The translations under genes were made by a program, and so were the position numbers. Below the pieces are notes generated by a model. That model had not been told where the DNA came from and searched no databases. It saw only the letters and a program-made list of their open reading frames with translations. Positions 48,091-54,546 of a DNA stretch of 64,000 bases are shown in pieces. Within the stretch, counting starts at the first letter, position 1; each line of letters starts with the position of its first letter. This DNA is from an uncultured Cohaesibacter sp. (lineage in GTDB: Bacteria > Pseudomonadota > Alphaproteobacteria > Rhizobiales > Cohaesibacteraceae), in NCBI RefSeq assembly GCF_963664735.1, contig NZ_OY761553.1, forward strand, positions 2,371,303 to 2,435,302. Reading direction: 5' to 3'.

Positions 48091-49170
48091 CTACTGGTAG
48101 TCGGCATAGACATCCAATGCGAAATGGCGCGCATAAAGCTCTGACATTCTCCCCGACTTTGCGAGCTTCTGCAAACCGACGTTAAGCAGATTGCCCACCC
48201 CTTCCTTGCCCGCAGTGAACGCAAATGACATGCCGTCACCAAAGAAATGGTCGTCATAATAGGGCTTGCCTGCAAAAGCAAAAACGCCGTTGCGCTCGGT
48301 AGCAAAGGGCAGAAGCTGGAAGGCATCCCCAAAAATGGCCACCACCTTTCCCTCTTGCAGCAAGTCGCGCGCGGCATGCAAATCATTGACCGGCACGCGA
48401 TTGAGATGGTCAAAATAGGCCCTGAGAAAAGCCTCGTGCGCAGTGCCTCCAATCACGGCAACAGGCTTGCCTTCCATGGACTTTTTATCCAGCTTCAGAG
48501 CCGCATCTTTCATCTTCAGGAAACGGCCCGGCCGTTTCAGGAATATGTTGGAGAAGGCAAGTTTGCCCCTGAAATCGGGATTGCGAACCAGCCCTGCCAA
48601 AGCCGCATCTGCCTCACCATTGGCGATAAGCTCGGGGATTTGGTCGAAGGGCACAATTTTCATCGAGCAGGCGATATTGAGCTGCTCACAAAATGCCCGG
48701 GCCAGTTCCACATGATAGCCAACAGGAGCCCCGTCATTGTCGCGATAGTTGAAGGGGGAAAAGCCATCGGCGGTCAGAAGACGCAGACCATCTTGCAACA
48801 GTTTTTCGTCCGGTTGGCGCAAGCGCTGATAGATATCGATAAATCCGGTGAAGTCTGCCTCGGCCCAGCCTTCGCTCGCAATCGGCTCTTCTGCCATGGT
48901 TGCGCGCTGCCTGCGGGTTGCCTCCAGCCCCGTTGTATCGCTGTTCACATCCCCCTCGACATTCGCGTCATCCGCAGCATTTTCCGGCTGGTTGTTCGCC
49001 TCCGGCTGCATAATCGTGTTTTCCGGCAACGGGTTGCTATTTGTCTGAGCGCTGGCCTGCATGGAGAGAAACAATAGGAGGGCAAACAGAATTATAGCCT
49101 TACCCCCCAAATTACATAATAAAAACCTATAAATATTGCAGAGGGACAGGGATTTTAAATAATTCCGCAT
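48091..49170 (-). CDS. Periplasmic solute-binding protein (SBP_bac_3)
   Basis: A 359-residue protein with a long signal sequence (cleavage after MQASA near 42), a low-complexity acidic spacer rich in N, E and D (about 45-105), and a SBP_bac_3 domain (about 115-350) with FSPFNYRDNDGAPVGYHVEL at its start, the usual opening of amino-acid-binding proteins, and VAVIGGTAHEAFLRAYF. No permease or ATPase gene is adjacent, so it may serve a distant ABC transporter or act as an orphan sensor. Start ATG 49170, GGAG 10 bases before. Divergent from the glycosyltransferase gene. Confidence 0.88.
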   Translation of the reverse strand: MRNYLKSLSLCNIYRFLLCNLGGKAIILFALLLFLSMQASAQTNSNPLPENTIMQPEANNQPENAADDANVEGDVNSDTTGLEATRRQRATMAEEPIASEGWAEADFTGFIDIYQRLRQPDEKLLQDGLRLLTADGFSPFNYRDNDGAPVGYHVELARAFCEQLNIACSMKIVPFDQIPELIANGEADAALAGLVRNPDFRGKLAFSNIFLKRPGRFLKMKDAALKLDKKSMEGKPVAVIGGTAHEAFLRAYFDHLNRVPVNDLHAARDLLQEGKVVAIFGDAFQLLPFATERNGVFAFAGKPYYDDHFFGDGMSFAFTAGKEGVGNLLNVGLQKLAKSGRMSELYARHFALDVYADYQ

Positions 49171-49319
49171 GCGGCAAATCTCCACACCCCTGACATTTTC
49201 CACCATTAAAAGTGGATTTTTTGAGATTGCACAATCCATGCTTCACTCTTTTTGATTTAGTCTAAGTAAAATTATAGATGCATCCATACCAGATATAAAA
49301 TTATTGATCACAGCTTGTC

Positions 49320-52300
49320 ATGAACTTTCTGAACAAAGCCAACTCTGACGCAGCTTACGCACGTCTTTTAAACGAAGACACGGCAATTTCAGAAATTCTG
49401 CCCCATTCCATAAATCCGAATGCGCTGGGGGAGAGAGGGGCTTTCAATGCGAAAGACTTGCCGTTTCACCTGTCGATCCTGACCCATTGCAAAGCTTTTC
49501 AGAAACCGGAAATTCTGAGTGCGCTTTTTCTCGCGGCTGATCGAGATGAAGACCTTGCCCGTCGCTGGACAAGAGAAGGCAAACTGGATGAAACGCTCTA
49601 TTTCAAGCTTGTTGCGCAAAATCTGGGCGTCCCTTTTGTCGAGCACGTGCCTAGCTCTTGTGTCTATCCGGCGCCAGCAAACTGGCCCTTGGAAAAGCTT
49701 GAAAGTCTTTCATGGATCACGATCCGCCCATTTTCGAGGCTGGACAATCTGCCTCCTGTTTCAGACGCTCTCTTTCTCAGTGCCCCCCATGGCAAAGCGC
49801 TTGATCAGCTGGCCGAAAAGCTCAAACGCGATCCGCAGTTCAGAAAAAATGTCCGCATCACAACGCCGCGCCAGCTTGGCAGCCTACAACGCTCATCAGC
49901 ACAAAACATCGCTATTCAGGACCATGTCTTTCATCTGGAAAAACGCCAGCCCCATCTCTCGGCGCATAAAAAATTCTCGACCCTCCAATTCTATCTCCTA
50001 GCGTTTGCTCTTGCGCTCATCATCGGGGGATGCATGTTCGTCTCCAAACTGGGAATCCTGTTCAATTTGCTCACGATTGCCATCTTTCTGACCATGAGCA
50101 CCTTGCGGTTCATTTCGCTTTGGCGTTTGCCGCACACGCGCAAGCAACAGGCGGACCGTCTTGAGCGCCTTCTTCAATCAGCCCAAATGAGAAAGGATGC
50201 TCGGGACTGGCCTAGCTACTCGGTGCTGGTTCCTCTTTTCCGGGAAGGGCGCGTTATCCCCGACCTGATCGATGCCCTTTGCAAACTCGATTATCCTCGC
50301 GAACGGCTCACCTGCTATTTGCTGCTGGAACATGAGGACCATGAAACCCGCGCAGCCCTTGCCAAGGTGGCTCTGCCTGCCTTCATTGAACTCGTAGACA
50401 TTCCCGAGGTCGGACCACAAACAAAACCCAAAGCGCTCAATTTTGCCTTGTCTTTCCTGCAATCGGACTTAACGGTTATCTATGACGCGGAAGACCGGCC
50501 AGACCCCTTGCAGCTCAAGATCGCAGCCATGCAAATGACGGAAGGCGGCACGTCCCTCGCTTGCCTGCAAGCCCGTCTTGCGATTGACAATGCGCGATCG
50601 AATTTCCTCACGCGCCAATTTGCCGTTGAATATGCCGCTCTGTTTGACGGCATTTTGCCATTTCTGGCTTTTGATCGATTGGTCGTCCCCCTTGGGGGAA
50701 CTTCCAACCATTTCAGGACCAGCGTCCTCAAGCAAATTGGCGGCTGGGATCCCTACAATGTAACCGAAGATGCCGACTTGGGGCTGCGCCTGTCGCGGTT
50801 TAACTATCGCATTGAAACCATTCCCAGTGACACCTGGGAAGAGGCACCGGAAAGCTATTCCATATGGCTTAAACAACGCACCCGTTGGTTCAAGGGCTGG
50901 ATGCAAACCTGGCTGGTCCATATGCGTCAGCCAAAACAGCTCTATCGCAAGCTCGGCAAGGATCGCTTTTTCTCCTTCCATATCATGATTGGCAGCATGC
51001 TTCTGTCGACCCTTGTGCACCCACTTTACTTTGTAACATTTGCCATGACGGCATGGAATCTTGCTGTATATGGAAGCGCAAACGGCTCACTCTTCTTCAT
51101 TCTTTTGGTTCTCAACGTAATCAATTTGTTGCTCGGTTACAGCGGCGTCATGGCTCTGGGCCGCAAGTGGGGCAAAAAACGCTACGGATTCAGCTGGCGT
51201 GCGGTGATCGAAATGCCTCTTTACTGGCTCATCATGACACCTGCGGCGTGGCGAGCACTTTATCAACTGATGCGCGATCCTCATCATTGGGAAAAAACCA
51301 GCCACGGATTGTCCGCAAAGCGCACTCGCCTTCCCCTGGCCAAGGTTACCTCTGGCATCAAGGCGCCGAGTGTGGCACTTTCGGGCAAATTCGGCAGCCA
51401 CTTCAGATGGAGATCTTTTTTCATGCGTCGCGATCCTTCCGCTCCCAAAGGGGCTTTGCAAACCATCACGATTTCTTCCAAGGCCATTGCGAACAACATG
51501 CTCGGGGATCAATGCGACCGCGAAGTCGTCATCTACACACCGCATGGGCACGATGGAGCGGGATTACCTTTGCTGGTGGATCTGGTCGGTTTCACGGCCG
51601 GTGGCCCGGCGCACGTGAGCTGGAAAAATTTCGGTGAGAATGTCCCGGAGCGTCTGGACCGCCTGATTGCCTCTGGCCAGATGCAACCGGCTGTCGTCGC
51701 CTTTCCCGACTGCTTCACACGCCTTGGCGGCAACCAGTATGTCAATTCCGCAGCACTCGGCAACTGGGAGGATTTTCTGATCGAGGAAATGACACCGGCA
51801 ATTGAAGCCCAGATCGGTTGTGGTGGCTCCGGTCGACGAGGCCTGTTTGGCAAATCCTCGGGCGGCTATGGCTCCATTCTACATGCTATGAAACATGCCG
51901 ATTTCTGGTCAGCAGCGGCATGCCTGTCGGGCGATATGGCATTTGAGCTATGCTACTTGCCAGACATGCCTAATCTGTTGCGCACGCTGGCCAGAAGAGA
52001 TGATTCCATTGAAGATTTTCTTTTGGCCTTTGAGGAAGGCCCGAAATATGACGGCAAGGATATTCATGCCTTGATGACGCTGGCCATGGCCGCCAGTTAT
52101 GATCCTGACCCAAGTGCATTTTGCGGTATCCGCTTGCCGGTTGCCATGCATGACTGCACGCTGATTGAAGAGCGCTGGGCCAATTGGCTGGAATGGGATC
52201 CGGTGGTGCTTGCTGACAGGGCTGAAGTCATTGACAATCTAAAATCCATGAAAGGGTTATGGATCGAATGTGGCTATGTGGATCAGTATAACCTGCTTTA

Positions 52301-52439
52301 CGGTGCGCGCCGGTTGCATGCCAAACTGGAGAGTGCCGGCGTCAAACATGTTTACGAAGAATTTCCCGACAACCATTCTTCCATTGACTATCGCATGGAC
52401 ACCTGTTTGCCATTTCTTGTGAACTCGCTCACAGCCTAG
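49320..52439 (+). CDS. Membrane glycosyltransferase 2 / esterase fusion
   Basis: A 1039-residue fusion. Part 1 (1 to about 675) is a processive GT2: an N-terminal T2SSE_N-like region, two helices (about 220-265), a GT-A domain with DAED (389-392), TEDAD (482-486) and QRTRW (519-523), then about three helices (552-645) and the family's end motif HHWEKTSHGL. Part 2 (about 702-1039) is a complete alpha/beta hydrolase of the esterase D/enterochelin type: oxyanion HG-like VGFTAGGP, nucleophile S846 in GKSSGGYG, acid D988 in CGYVDQYN, and H1019 in DNHSSIDYR. No frameshift is seen. An internal ATG (51423) begins the esterase and could be a second start. If three helices follow the GT domain, the esterase is periplasmic, able to cut or transfer acyl groups on the glycan being exported. 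Confidence 0.9.
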   Translation: MNFLNKANSDAAYARLLNEDTAISEILPHSINPNALGERGAFNAKDLPFHLSILTHCKAFQKPEILSALFLAADRDEDLARRWTREGKLDETLYFKLVAQNLGVPFVEHVPSSCVYPAPANWPLEKLESLSWITIRPFSRLDNLPPVSDALFLSAPHGKALDQLAEKLKRDPQFRKNVRITTPRQLGSLQRSSAQNIAIQDHVFHLEKRQPHLSAHKKFSTLQFYLLAFALALIIGGCMFVSKLGILFNLLTIAIFLTMSTLRFISLWRLPHTRKQQADRLERLLQSAQMRKDARDWPSYSVLVPLFREGRVIPDLIDALCKLDYPRERLTCYLLLEHEDHETRAALAKVALPAFIELVDIPEVGPQTKPKALNFALSFLQSDLTVIYDAEDRPDPLQLKIAAMQMTEGGTSLACLQARLAIDNARSNFLTRQFAVEYAALFDGILPFLAFDRLVVPLGGTSNHFRTSVLKQIGGWDPYNVTEDADLGLRLSRFNYRIETIPSDTWEEAPESYSIWLKQRTRWFKGWMQTWLVHMRQPKQLYRKLGKDRFFSFHIMIGSMLLSTLVHPLYFVTFAMTAWNLAVYGSANGSLFFILLVLNVINLLLGYSGVMALGRKWGKKRYGFSWRAVIEMPLYWLIMTPAAWRALYQLMRDPHHWEKTSHGLSAKRTRLPLAKVTSGIKAPSVALSGKFGSHFRWRSFFMRRDPSAPKGALQTITISSKAIANNMLGDQCDREVVIYTPHGHDGAGLPLLVDLVGFTAGGPAHVSWKNFGENVPERLDRLIASGQMQPAVVAFPDCFTRLGGNQYVNSAALGNWEDFLIEEMTPAIEAQIGCGGSGRRGLFGKSSGGYGSILHAMKHADFWSAAACLSGDMAFELCYLPDMPNLLRTLARRDDSIEDFLLAFEEGPKYDGKDIHALMTLAMAASYDPDPSAFCGIRLPVAMHDCTLIEERWANWLEWDPVVLADRAEVIDNLKSMKGLWIECGYVDQYNLLYGARRLHAKLESAGVKHVYEEFPDNHSSIDYRMDTCLPFLVNSLTA

Positions 52440-52518: not shown

Positions 52519-52617
52519 AAAACATCCAGACATGGCCAGAAATCGGTTTACCAGAGCGCGGCAAATCAGATACGGTCCTTTGCATAGTTCTTCATTAACT
52601 AAAAATTAAGCACCTTG

Positions 52618-54546
52618 ATGCCCCCACCAGCACAGCCTCTTCTTGCCAGTGATAGCGATGCGTTCGAGTCTGACCTGTTTGACGCCGCAGATGCTTTCGA
52701 GCTGGACGCGCAAGCCAGTCCGCAGGAGCGGGCATTGCGGATGCTCAAGACAGTCTATGGCTATGATCAGTTTCGTGGTCGGCAGGCGACAGTTATCGAA
52801 AGCCTGCTTGAAGGCAAGAGCACCCTTGCCGTCATGCCAACGGGCATGGGCAAGAGTGTTTGTTTCCAGATCCCGGCCCTGATTTTCGGGGGGCTCACGC
52901 TGGTTATTTCTCCACTCGTGGCCCTGATGGAAGATCAGGTGATGGCGCTCAAGCTTTTGGGCATTGCCGCAGACAGCATCAATAGTTCACGCTCGCGCGA
53001 AGAGAATGTTTCCGTTTGGCGCAAAGTGGCGGCAGGCGAGATTCGCCTCCTCTATATCGCGCCGGAAAGGCTCATGACAGAGCGGATGTTGTCTGCCCTT
53101 GCCAAGCTGCCCGTGCGCTTGATCGCGATTGACGAGGCGCACTGCATTTCTCGCTGGGGACCCAGTTTCCGACCTGACTATGAGGGATTGACGCGGCTTT
53201 CCGATTTCTTCCCCGGCACCCCCATTGCCGCGCTGACAGCGACAGCGGACGAGGCAACCCGTGAGGATATCGCCGAGAAGCTTTTCCCGCGCACAGCCAA
53301 CGGCGAGCGCGATGGCAAGGTGATTGTGTCAGGATTTGACCGACCCAACATTCGGCTGTCAGTGCAGCTACGCAAGGACTGGAAAAAGCAGTTGCTTGAT
53401 TTTGTGAAGGCACGCGCTGACCAATCTGGCATCGTCTATTGCCTCTCGCGCCGCAAGACAGAAGAAACGGCAGAATATCTGCAGGAAAATGGCATCAAGG
53501 CCTTTGCCTATCATGCGGGCATGGACAGCAACATCCGGGCAGCCCATCAGGCTCTTTTCATGCGGGAATCAGGCACCGTGATGGTGGCCACCATTGCTTT
53601 TGGAATGGGCATCGACAAACCAGATGTGCGCTATGTGTTCCACACCAACCTGCCTTCCAACATGGAAGCCTATTCGCAGGAAATCGGGCGTGCTGGCCGC
53701 GACGGAGAACCATCCGAAGCGATGATGCTATACGGTCTTGATGACATAAGAATGCGCCGCAGCTTTATCGACAATGAAGGCGGTGACGAGGATCATCTGG
53801 CGCGGGAACACAAGCGCCTTGATGCGCTCATTGCCTATTGCGAAGCGCCAACCTGCCGCCGTCAAGCATTGCTCACCTATTTTGGCGAGACCATCGAACC
53901 TTGCAACAATTGCGATGTCTGTCTTGATCCGCCAGAGCTGAAGGAGGGCACCACGGAGGCTCTGAGCCTGATCGATGTAGCCGAACAAACCGGCGAGATC
54001 TTCGGTGCCGTACAGCTCATCGATATTTTGCGTGGCCTTACCCACGAGAAGATCAAGAAATACAATCATCACAAGCTCTCTTGCCATGGAACGGGGAAAG
54101 CCACCTCCAAGGAAGACTGGCGTGCAATCCTGCGCCAGATGGTGGCTGCCAATCTGTTGCGCCTCGACATTCAGAACCACGGAGCCCTCAAACTTACGGG
54201 CAAGTCAGACGCGCTGAAAAAAGGTGAGATCCGTTTTTCCTATCGGACGGACGTGATGGCAACGGGCGAACTCATTCGCCCCAAACGCAGCAAAAGCAGT
54301 CTTCCCGAACTGGATGCTTCCGACAAAGACCTTTACGAAGCCCTGCGTTCTGCCCGATCTGAACTGGCTCGCGAGCACAAAGTTCCCGCCTATGTAATTT
54401 TCACAGATAAGACATTAGCAGAAATAGCAATCCATAAACCAACGACCCGCCCTGACTTCCTATTAATACATGGTGTCGGAAGTTCAAAGCAGAAGAAGTT
54501 TGCCGATCACTTTATTGATGTTGTAGAAAATTGGCTTTGTGTTTAG
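52618..54546 (+). CDS. recQ: ATP-dependent DNA helicase RecQ
   Basis: A 642-residue RecQ helicase with an unusual 40-residue acidic N-terminal extension before MLKTVYGYDQFRG. Motifs: Walker A PTGMGKS, DEAH box IDEAHCISRWG, SATADEATR, motif VI IGRAGRDGE, then the zinc-binding region with C.TC.R and CNNCDVC, winged helix, and HRDC domain (about 565-642). Unwinds DNA 3' to 5' in recombination and repair. I chose ATG 52618; the TTG before it would add one residue. Confidence 0.96.
   Translation: MPPPAQPLLASDSDAFESDLFDAADAFELDAQASPQERALRMLKTVYGYDQFRGRQATVIESLLEGKSTLAVMPTGMGKSVCFQIPALIFGGLTLVISPLVALMEDQVMALKLLGIAADSINSSRSREENVSVWRKVAAGEIRLLYIAPERLMTERMLSALAKLPVRLIAIDEAHCISRWGPSFRPDYEGLTRLSDFFPGTPIAALTATADEATREDIAEKLFPRTANGERDGKVIVSGFDRPNIRLSVQLRKDWKKQLLDFVKARADQSGIVYCLSRRKTEETAEYLQENGIKAFAYHAGMDSNIRAAHQALFMRESGTVMVATIAFGMGIDKPDVRYVFHTNLPSNMEAYSQEIGRAGRDGEPSEAMMLYGLDDIRMRRSFIDNEGGDEDHLAREHKRLDALIAYCEAPTCRRQALLTYFGETIEPCNNCDVCLDPPELKEGTTEALSLIDVAEQTGEIFGAVQLIDILRGLTHEKIKKYNHHKLSCHGTGKATSKEDWRAILRQMVAANLLRLDIQNHGALKLTGKSDALKKGEIRFSYRTDVMATGELIRPKRSKSSLPELDASDKDLYEALRSARSELAREHKVPAYVIFTDKTLAEIAIHKPTTRPDFLLIHGVGSSKQKKFADHFIDVVENWLCV

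Follow-up and report, generated by a model that had tools for sequence, protein, structure and literature searches.

The locus described here raises the question of why one open reading frame should encode both a processive membrane glycosyltransferase of family 2 (GT2) and a complete esterase, and whether one or two products are made from it. The frame lies in a stretch of 64,000 nucleotides from an uncultured Cohaesibacter sp. (hereafter, the window), whose genome is a single contig of 4.94 Mb, and runs from ATG to stop over 1039 codons (positions 49320-52439, forward strand). The GT motifs DAED, TEDAD and QRTRW are present in the encoded protein and are followed by WEKTSHG. Pfam GT2 domains are found above the gathering scores at residues 386-582 (PF13632, 2.2e-21) and 298-525 (PF13641, 5e-20). 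The combination of a GT2 fold with DxD-type, TED and QxxRW motifs, which are shared by 15/15 GTs of the genus and by 7/8 outgroup rows (one lacks TED), assigns the GT half to the processive membrane GT2 enzymes of the BcsA/hyaluronan synthase (HAS) type. Its nearest solved relative by sequence is BcsA. By analogy with BcsA and HAS, its most likely role is sugar polymerisation or transfer across the inner membrane. At the same time, it scores far below the cut-offs of the NCBIfam equivalogs for PgaC (63.9 against 422.3) and BcsA (40.3 and 45.4 against 699.1 and 992).

The esterase half matches PF00756 (7.9e-12) over residues 731-1021 and model positions 5-237 of 251. Its score of 45.9 against a gathering score of 22 bits, with most of the model covered, makes it a member of the PF00756, CE1-like esterases. 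Across 40 aligned esterases the triad candidates are intact, with S846 in 40/40 and both D988 and H1019 in 39/40, the missing cells being gaps in a truncated locus (L153). The nearest solved esterase by sequence is 8z91, a soil-metagenome esterase that aligns over the same stretch. In the printed alignment it has Ser at the nucleophile and differs from the esterase here in having E, not D, opposite the acid. The fold matches CE1, Fes and esterase-D structures, a comparison based on a low-confidence AF2 model, since both AF2 models obtained are of low confidence over the esterase. Judged from its sequence, the esterase half is a complete CE1/esterase-D-type hydrolase with a putative S846, D988 and H1019 triad. 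In comparison with the known CE1, esterase D and Fes-type hydrolases, it belongs to a subfamily of its own (GKSSGG in 39/40, about 337 aa), is fused to a GT, and shows no evident signal peptide at the starts of its stand-alone relatives.

Table 1. Features of the fused gene and its surroundings (window coordinates).
Feature	Position	Strand	Remarks
Family-3 solute-binding protein, divergent neighbour	48091..49239	-	PF00497
Fused gene: MshEN-like domain, processive GT2 and esterase, 1039 aa	49320..52439	+	Eight other genomes carry full-length orthologues
Weakly MshEN/T2SSE_N-like N-terminal domain (residues about 45-215), c-di-GMP-binding motif absent	49452..49964	+	
GT2 core, residues 216-665: two helices before, two membrane helices and interface helix 3 after	49965..51314	+	
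WEKTSHG, probable counterpart of the gating loop (cytosolic) in hyaluronan and cellulose synthases	51288..51308	+	
Linker, 36 codons; codon periodicity lost, bases conserved, without gap or stop in 9 fusions	51315..51422	+	
Shine-Dalgarno GGAG, 10 nt ahead of the internal ATG	51409..51412	+	GGAG[AG] in 9/9 fusions
Esterase, residues 702-1039, with the same ATG start as its stand-alone relatives	51423..52439	+	S846 51855-51857, D988 52281-52283, H1019 52374-52376
RecQ helicase, downstream landmark	52615..54546	+	15/15 genus loci

The reality of the frame is settled by its distribution. Full-length fusions are found in 9 of 18 Cohaesibacter genomes, five of the nine being single-contig assemblies, and the eight other fusions are 72-76% identical to that of the window. 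Because of this conservation, the frame is neither a chance frame nor a local sequence error, and a sequencing or assembly error in one genome has practically no chance of being the explanation. The preliminary description of the window had read the frame as a GT2 with a complete esterase as an added domain, which the frame, motifs, Pfam domains and conserved triad residues bear out; the GT ends as its stand-alone relatives do, with the esterase behind it. It had also named a combination that would undermine this reading, namely separate genes in close relatives and a local error. Separate genes do occur in two relatives; such an error is contradicted by the presence of the fusion in nine genomes. 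The locus therefore holds a lineage-specific gene fusion that is real and old.

Three states of the same locus are seen within the genus. Apart from the nine genomes with the fusion, two (G008 and G012) carry the GT and the esterase as separate adjacent genes, and four (G006, G015, G016 and G017) carry the GT alone, with no esterase found when these four genomes were searched for it. The remaining three gave no match (G005, 64% complete; G009, 90%; G011, 99%). In 15/15 genus loci, RecQ borders the locus on one side, with a FA-hydroxylase and the solute-binding protein on the opposite side. The fused GTs group in a single clade (support 100/100), and so do the fused esterases, which are sister to the two separate esterases at 98/91. 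These trees are most simply accounted for by a single fusion event from neighbouring genes. The separate genes are 758 nt apart in G008 and 411 nt apart in G012. These spacers (L117:9356-10113 and L119:9635-10045) each hold a frame on the minus strand (154 and 59 aa, respectively) with a signal-peptide-like start and a glycine-rich stretch, for which the fused loci have no room; a promoter-like site, CTGACA-17-CATAAT, is also seen in them between the GT and the esterase.

Both halves have been kept under purifying selection since dN is far below dS in each. Between the window and seven other fusions, dN is 0.083-0.093 for the esterase and 0.173-0.187 for the GT core. Within the fusion, conservation is highest in the esterase half (about 86-88% identity to the copy of the window) and lowest in the N-terminal domain (45-54%). 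Synonymous sites are near saturation at the divergence among the fusions, and the fused frame is still kept.

The linker between the two halves evolves differently from both. In between-clade pairs from eight of the nine fusions, the GT core has identities of 78/88/50% and the esterase of 88/94/54% at codon positions 1/2/3, compared with 67/66/65% in the linker and 69/70/78% in its last 16 codons, and the linker dN is about equal to dS. The lost periodicity is the unusual feature, although a poorly conserved stretch around residue 12 comes close to it; third-position identity by itself ranks only 36th of 1003 windows, and GT windows at 494-505 reach 69%. The linker thus has conserved bases without conserved codons, as expected of a ribosome-binding region. 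The absence of stops from it is weak evidence, because 0.57-0.68 of the linkers stay open in a simulation with 17% random changes.

A point missed in the preliminary description is the conserved internal start at the end of this linker. Residue 702 is encoded by ATG in 9/9 fusions and is preceded by GGAG[AG] in 9/9, a conservation that may partly reflect the encoded residues, although AGA/AGG make up 12% of nearby Arg codons. M702 coincides with the start of the stand-alone esterases, taken as the nearest ATG or GTG around the equivalent position: the start is at the same position in 25 of 29 stand-alone loci and one codon upstream in the other four. The duplex energies were calculated with an assumed anti-Shine-Dalgarno sequence. 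They range from -6.4 to -9.5 kcal/mol at M702 in the nine fusions (mean -7.9), as against a mean of -1.7 (sd 2.2) for the 227 other in-frame ATGs, only three of which reach the weakest M702, and M702 is the strongest among the ATGs conserved in all nine. The first ATG of the fusion gives +0.6 in 8/9 and -2.7 in one; a weak score is nothing unusual for a first ATG here, with 0.4 at the assumed recQ ATG. Upstream of this first ATG (49300-49320) the bases look conserved, though without a Shine-Dalgarno match in 8/9, and a leaderless mRNA for the fused gene is possible.

The retained ATG and GGAG[AG], together with the conserved linker bases lacking codon periodicity, suggest that a free esterase is probably also made, as a second product by internal initiation at M702. 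As a point against this, a consensus scan of the linker of the window gave no sigma-70-like promoter, while such a promoter lies upstream of the esterase in both separate-gene loci. A sigma-54-like site picked out by eye was dropped for its irregular spacing. RNA folding at the internal start, carried out for 4/9 fusions, gave no excess stability (z +0.2 to +1.6).

The side of the membrane on which the esterase lies depends on how the GT half ends. The AF2 model is good over the GT part (tens of residues mostly at 83-96) and poor over the esterase. It has helices at 221-240 and 242-290 ahead of the GT domain and at 547-588, 590-622 and 632-652 behind it, and 547-588 and 590-622 correspond to membrane helices. 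Three rows of the structural alignment with XlHAS1 end at model residues 650, 652 and 664, opposite XlHAS1 486, 488 and 497. In XlHAS1, residues 485-503 form a gating loop in the cytosol, which joins interface helix 3 to TMH5 and contains WGTSGRK/R at 491-497 (PMC11750622). From these end points and the published position of the loop, helix 632-652 would correspond to interface helix 3 and W657-x-K-T-x-H to the gating-loop motif, which makes WEKTSHG the probable equivalent of the cytosolic gating loop in the model. W657, K659, T660 and H662 are invariant across 40 aligned GTs. As the chain enters the linker without a further predicted membrane helix after this loop equivalent, the esterase most likely lies on the cytosolic side. 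The register comes from alignment end points, not from residue-by-residue alignment. The CvHAS and BcsA rows do not fix it, since they run on to model 670-679, where the opposing residues lie far beyond the loops of CvHAS and BcsA. A weak sequence-profile match to 8smm_A (XlHAS1) sets residue 484 opposite window residue 612, not 650; the structural register has been trusted over it because it covers over 350 residues.

The N-terminal domain could suggest a regulatory role for the second messenger c-di-GMP. In a comparison of a profile of 40 GTs with the PilF chain 6f8l_G, profile positions 36-96 (window residues 52-112) give a weak match, with a whole-sequence E of 5.4e-7, yet no individual stretch passes. 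The c-di-GMP-binding motif of MshEN has 24 residues and the form RLG...LxxQ (PMC5013675). This receptor motif, strict or relaxed, is found in 0/63 aligned rows, and a Pfam search of 40 GT members found no MshEN-type domain. Control by c-di-GMP through this domain is thus unsupported, and the domain is, on weak sequence likeness, a degenerate MshEN-like domain.

Outside the fusion, the two enzymes mostly live apart, which weakens the idea that they are coupled. In a search of 61 genomes, 52 matched the whole query, 48 of them with a GT match at E <= 4.2e-49, one (G019) through the esterase only and three (G054, G057 and G059) weakly. The esterase is matched in 26/385 genomes of the class and 3/398 of the phylum, with that of the window counted in both, and among these genomes the only fusion-size frame is that of the window. 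A GT match at E <= 1e-20 is lacking in 22 of the 27 genomes with a stand-alone esterase, and in 17 of 22 among the near-complete ones. No conserved operon was obvious by eye among the neighbours listed for 24 stand-alone esterase loci. A stand-alone esterase inside an 882-aa frame (L035) was set aside: the upstream part has no GT match, and the extension is taken as chance in G+C-rich DNA. The title of the same record, Mycobacterium sp. KBS0706, looks wrong, as the esterase shares 95% identity with the one from Inquilinus limosus MP06 (L037). Likewise, a record titled Bacillus subtilis strain SK6B4 (L087) looks mislabelled or contaminated, as its GT shares 96% identity with the GT of Pseudochrobactrum asaccharolyticum (L083). 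Outside the genus, 48/72 GT loci, in a set that includes some with short flanks, have a family-3 solute-binding protein nearby, which in 45 cases is encoded upstream on the opposite strand. Judged by this neighbourhood, the solute-binding protein is a stronger candidate than the esterase as a functional partner of the GT.

We consider it likely that the locus represents a fusion of GT2 and esterase in one clade, with the esterase cytosolic, the internal start kept and probably two products. A processive GT2 and a cytosolic CE1/esterase-D-type esterase would have become neighbours between the solute-binding-protein gene and recQ, and the ancestor of one Cohaesibacter clade would then have lost the stop codon and the spacer, so that the two genes were read as one. 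The esterase would be tethered on the cytosolic face, right behind the gating loop of the synthase, and the old esterase start and ribosome-binding site would have survived inside the fused gene. The products would be a membrane-bound synthase-esterase and a free cytosolic esterase made by internal initiation. The preliminary description had placed the esterase in the periplasm on account of the three hydrophobic segments behind the GT domain, where it would act on the emerging polymer. The other register given by the one weak sequence match, and the derivation of the preferred register from end points, leave some room for this, but the third segment is the helix aligned with XlHAS1 interface helix 3, ahead of the cytosolic gating loop. 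The invariant W, K, T and H after it suggest a place at a cytosolic active site, basic residues mark both the loop that precedes the helix (GRKWGKKRYGFSWR) and the linker, and the stand-alone esterases have no evident signal peptide. A periplasmic esterase is accordingly regarded as highly unlikely.

Two other proposals address the purpose of the fusion and are compatible with the two-product explanation. The fusion may be neutral, the deletion of the stop codon having been tolerated by both enzymes, with the free M702 esterase functional and the fused form incidental; we give this somewhat less than an even chance. It agrees with the start and Shine-Dalgarno sequence retained in 9/9, with the lack of a Shine-Dalgarno match at the GT start and with linker evolution free of codon periodicity, but neither a stop nor a frameshift has become fixed in any of the nine linkers; the absence of stops alone is compatible with chance. 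Alternatively, the esterase may act at the gating loop on a putative acylated sugar nucleotide, primer or nascent chain, the fusion serving to channel or edit the substrate. This would be in keeping with the position of the esterase behind the probable gating loop, with the fused frame being kept at near-saturated synonymous divergence, and with a linker without gaps while, in the same genomes, the spacer between esterase and recQ ranges from about 141 to 207 nt (from alignment ends). Against it, gaps are rare across the rest of the fusion too (residues 23-37 only), the linker shows no protein-level constraint, 4/15 genus loci have the GT without the esterase, and most genomes with a stand-alone esterase lack a GT match at E <= 1e-20; such coupling is rated as unlikely. 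A further reading, in which one gene gives a free cytosolic esterase and a form tethered at the gating loop that edits, on the cytosolic side, acylated precursors or the nascent chain, the linker doubling as ribosome-binding region, appears rather improbable.

Among described systems, BcsA and HAS resemble the GT half as processive membrane GT2 enzymes. The GT here ends after the probable gating loop, so that the final membrane helices of HAS would be missing from it; it has no PilZ match and carries an N-terminal MshEN-like domain. The nearest described idea is NfrB of E. coli, a processive GT2 regulated through an MshEN-type domain (PMC8669469). NfrB has this domain at the other end, whereas the domain here is N-terminal, weak and without the binding motif, and an esterase is present. 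Among the literature matches listed for GT2-esterase fusions, GT-deacetylase fusions and the locus, no description of this architecture was seen.

Cohaesibacter retains the GT alone, the adjacent genes and the fused gene as three states of a single locus, which makes the history of this fusion of a membrane synthase directly readable. The apparently working internal start makes it a clear case for the question of whether bacterial gene fusions give a single product or two. Should the tethered form be of importance, the clade would possess a processive synthase that carries an esterase on the cytosolic face.
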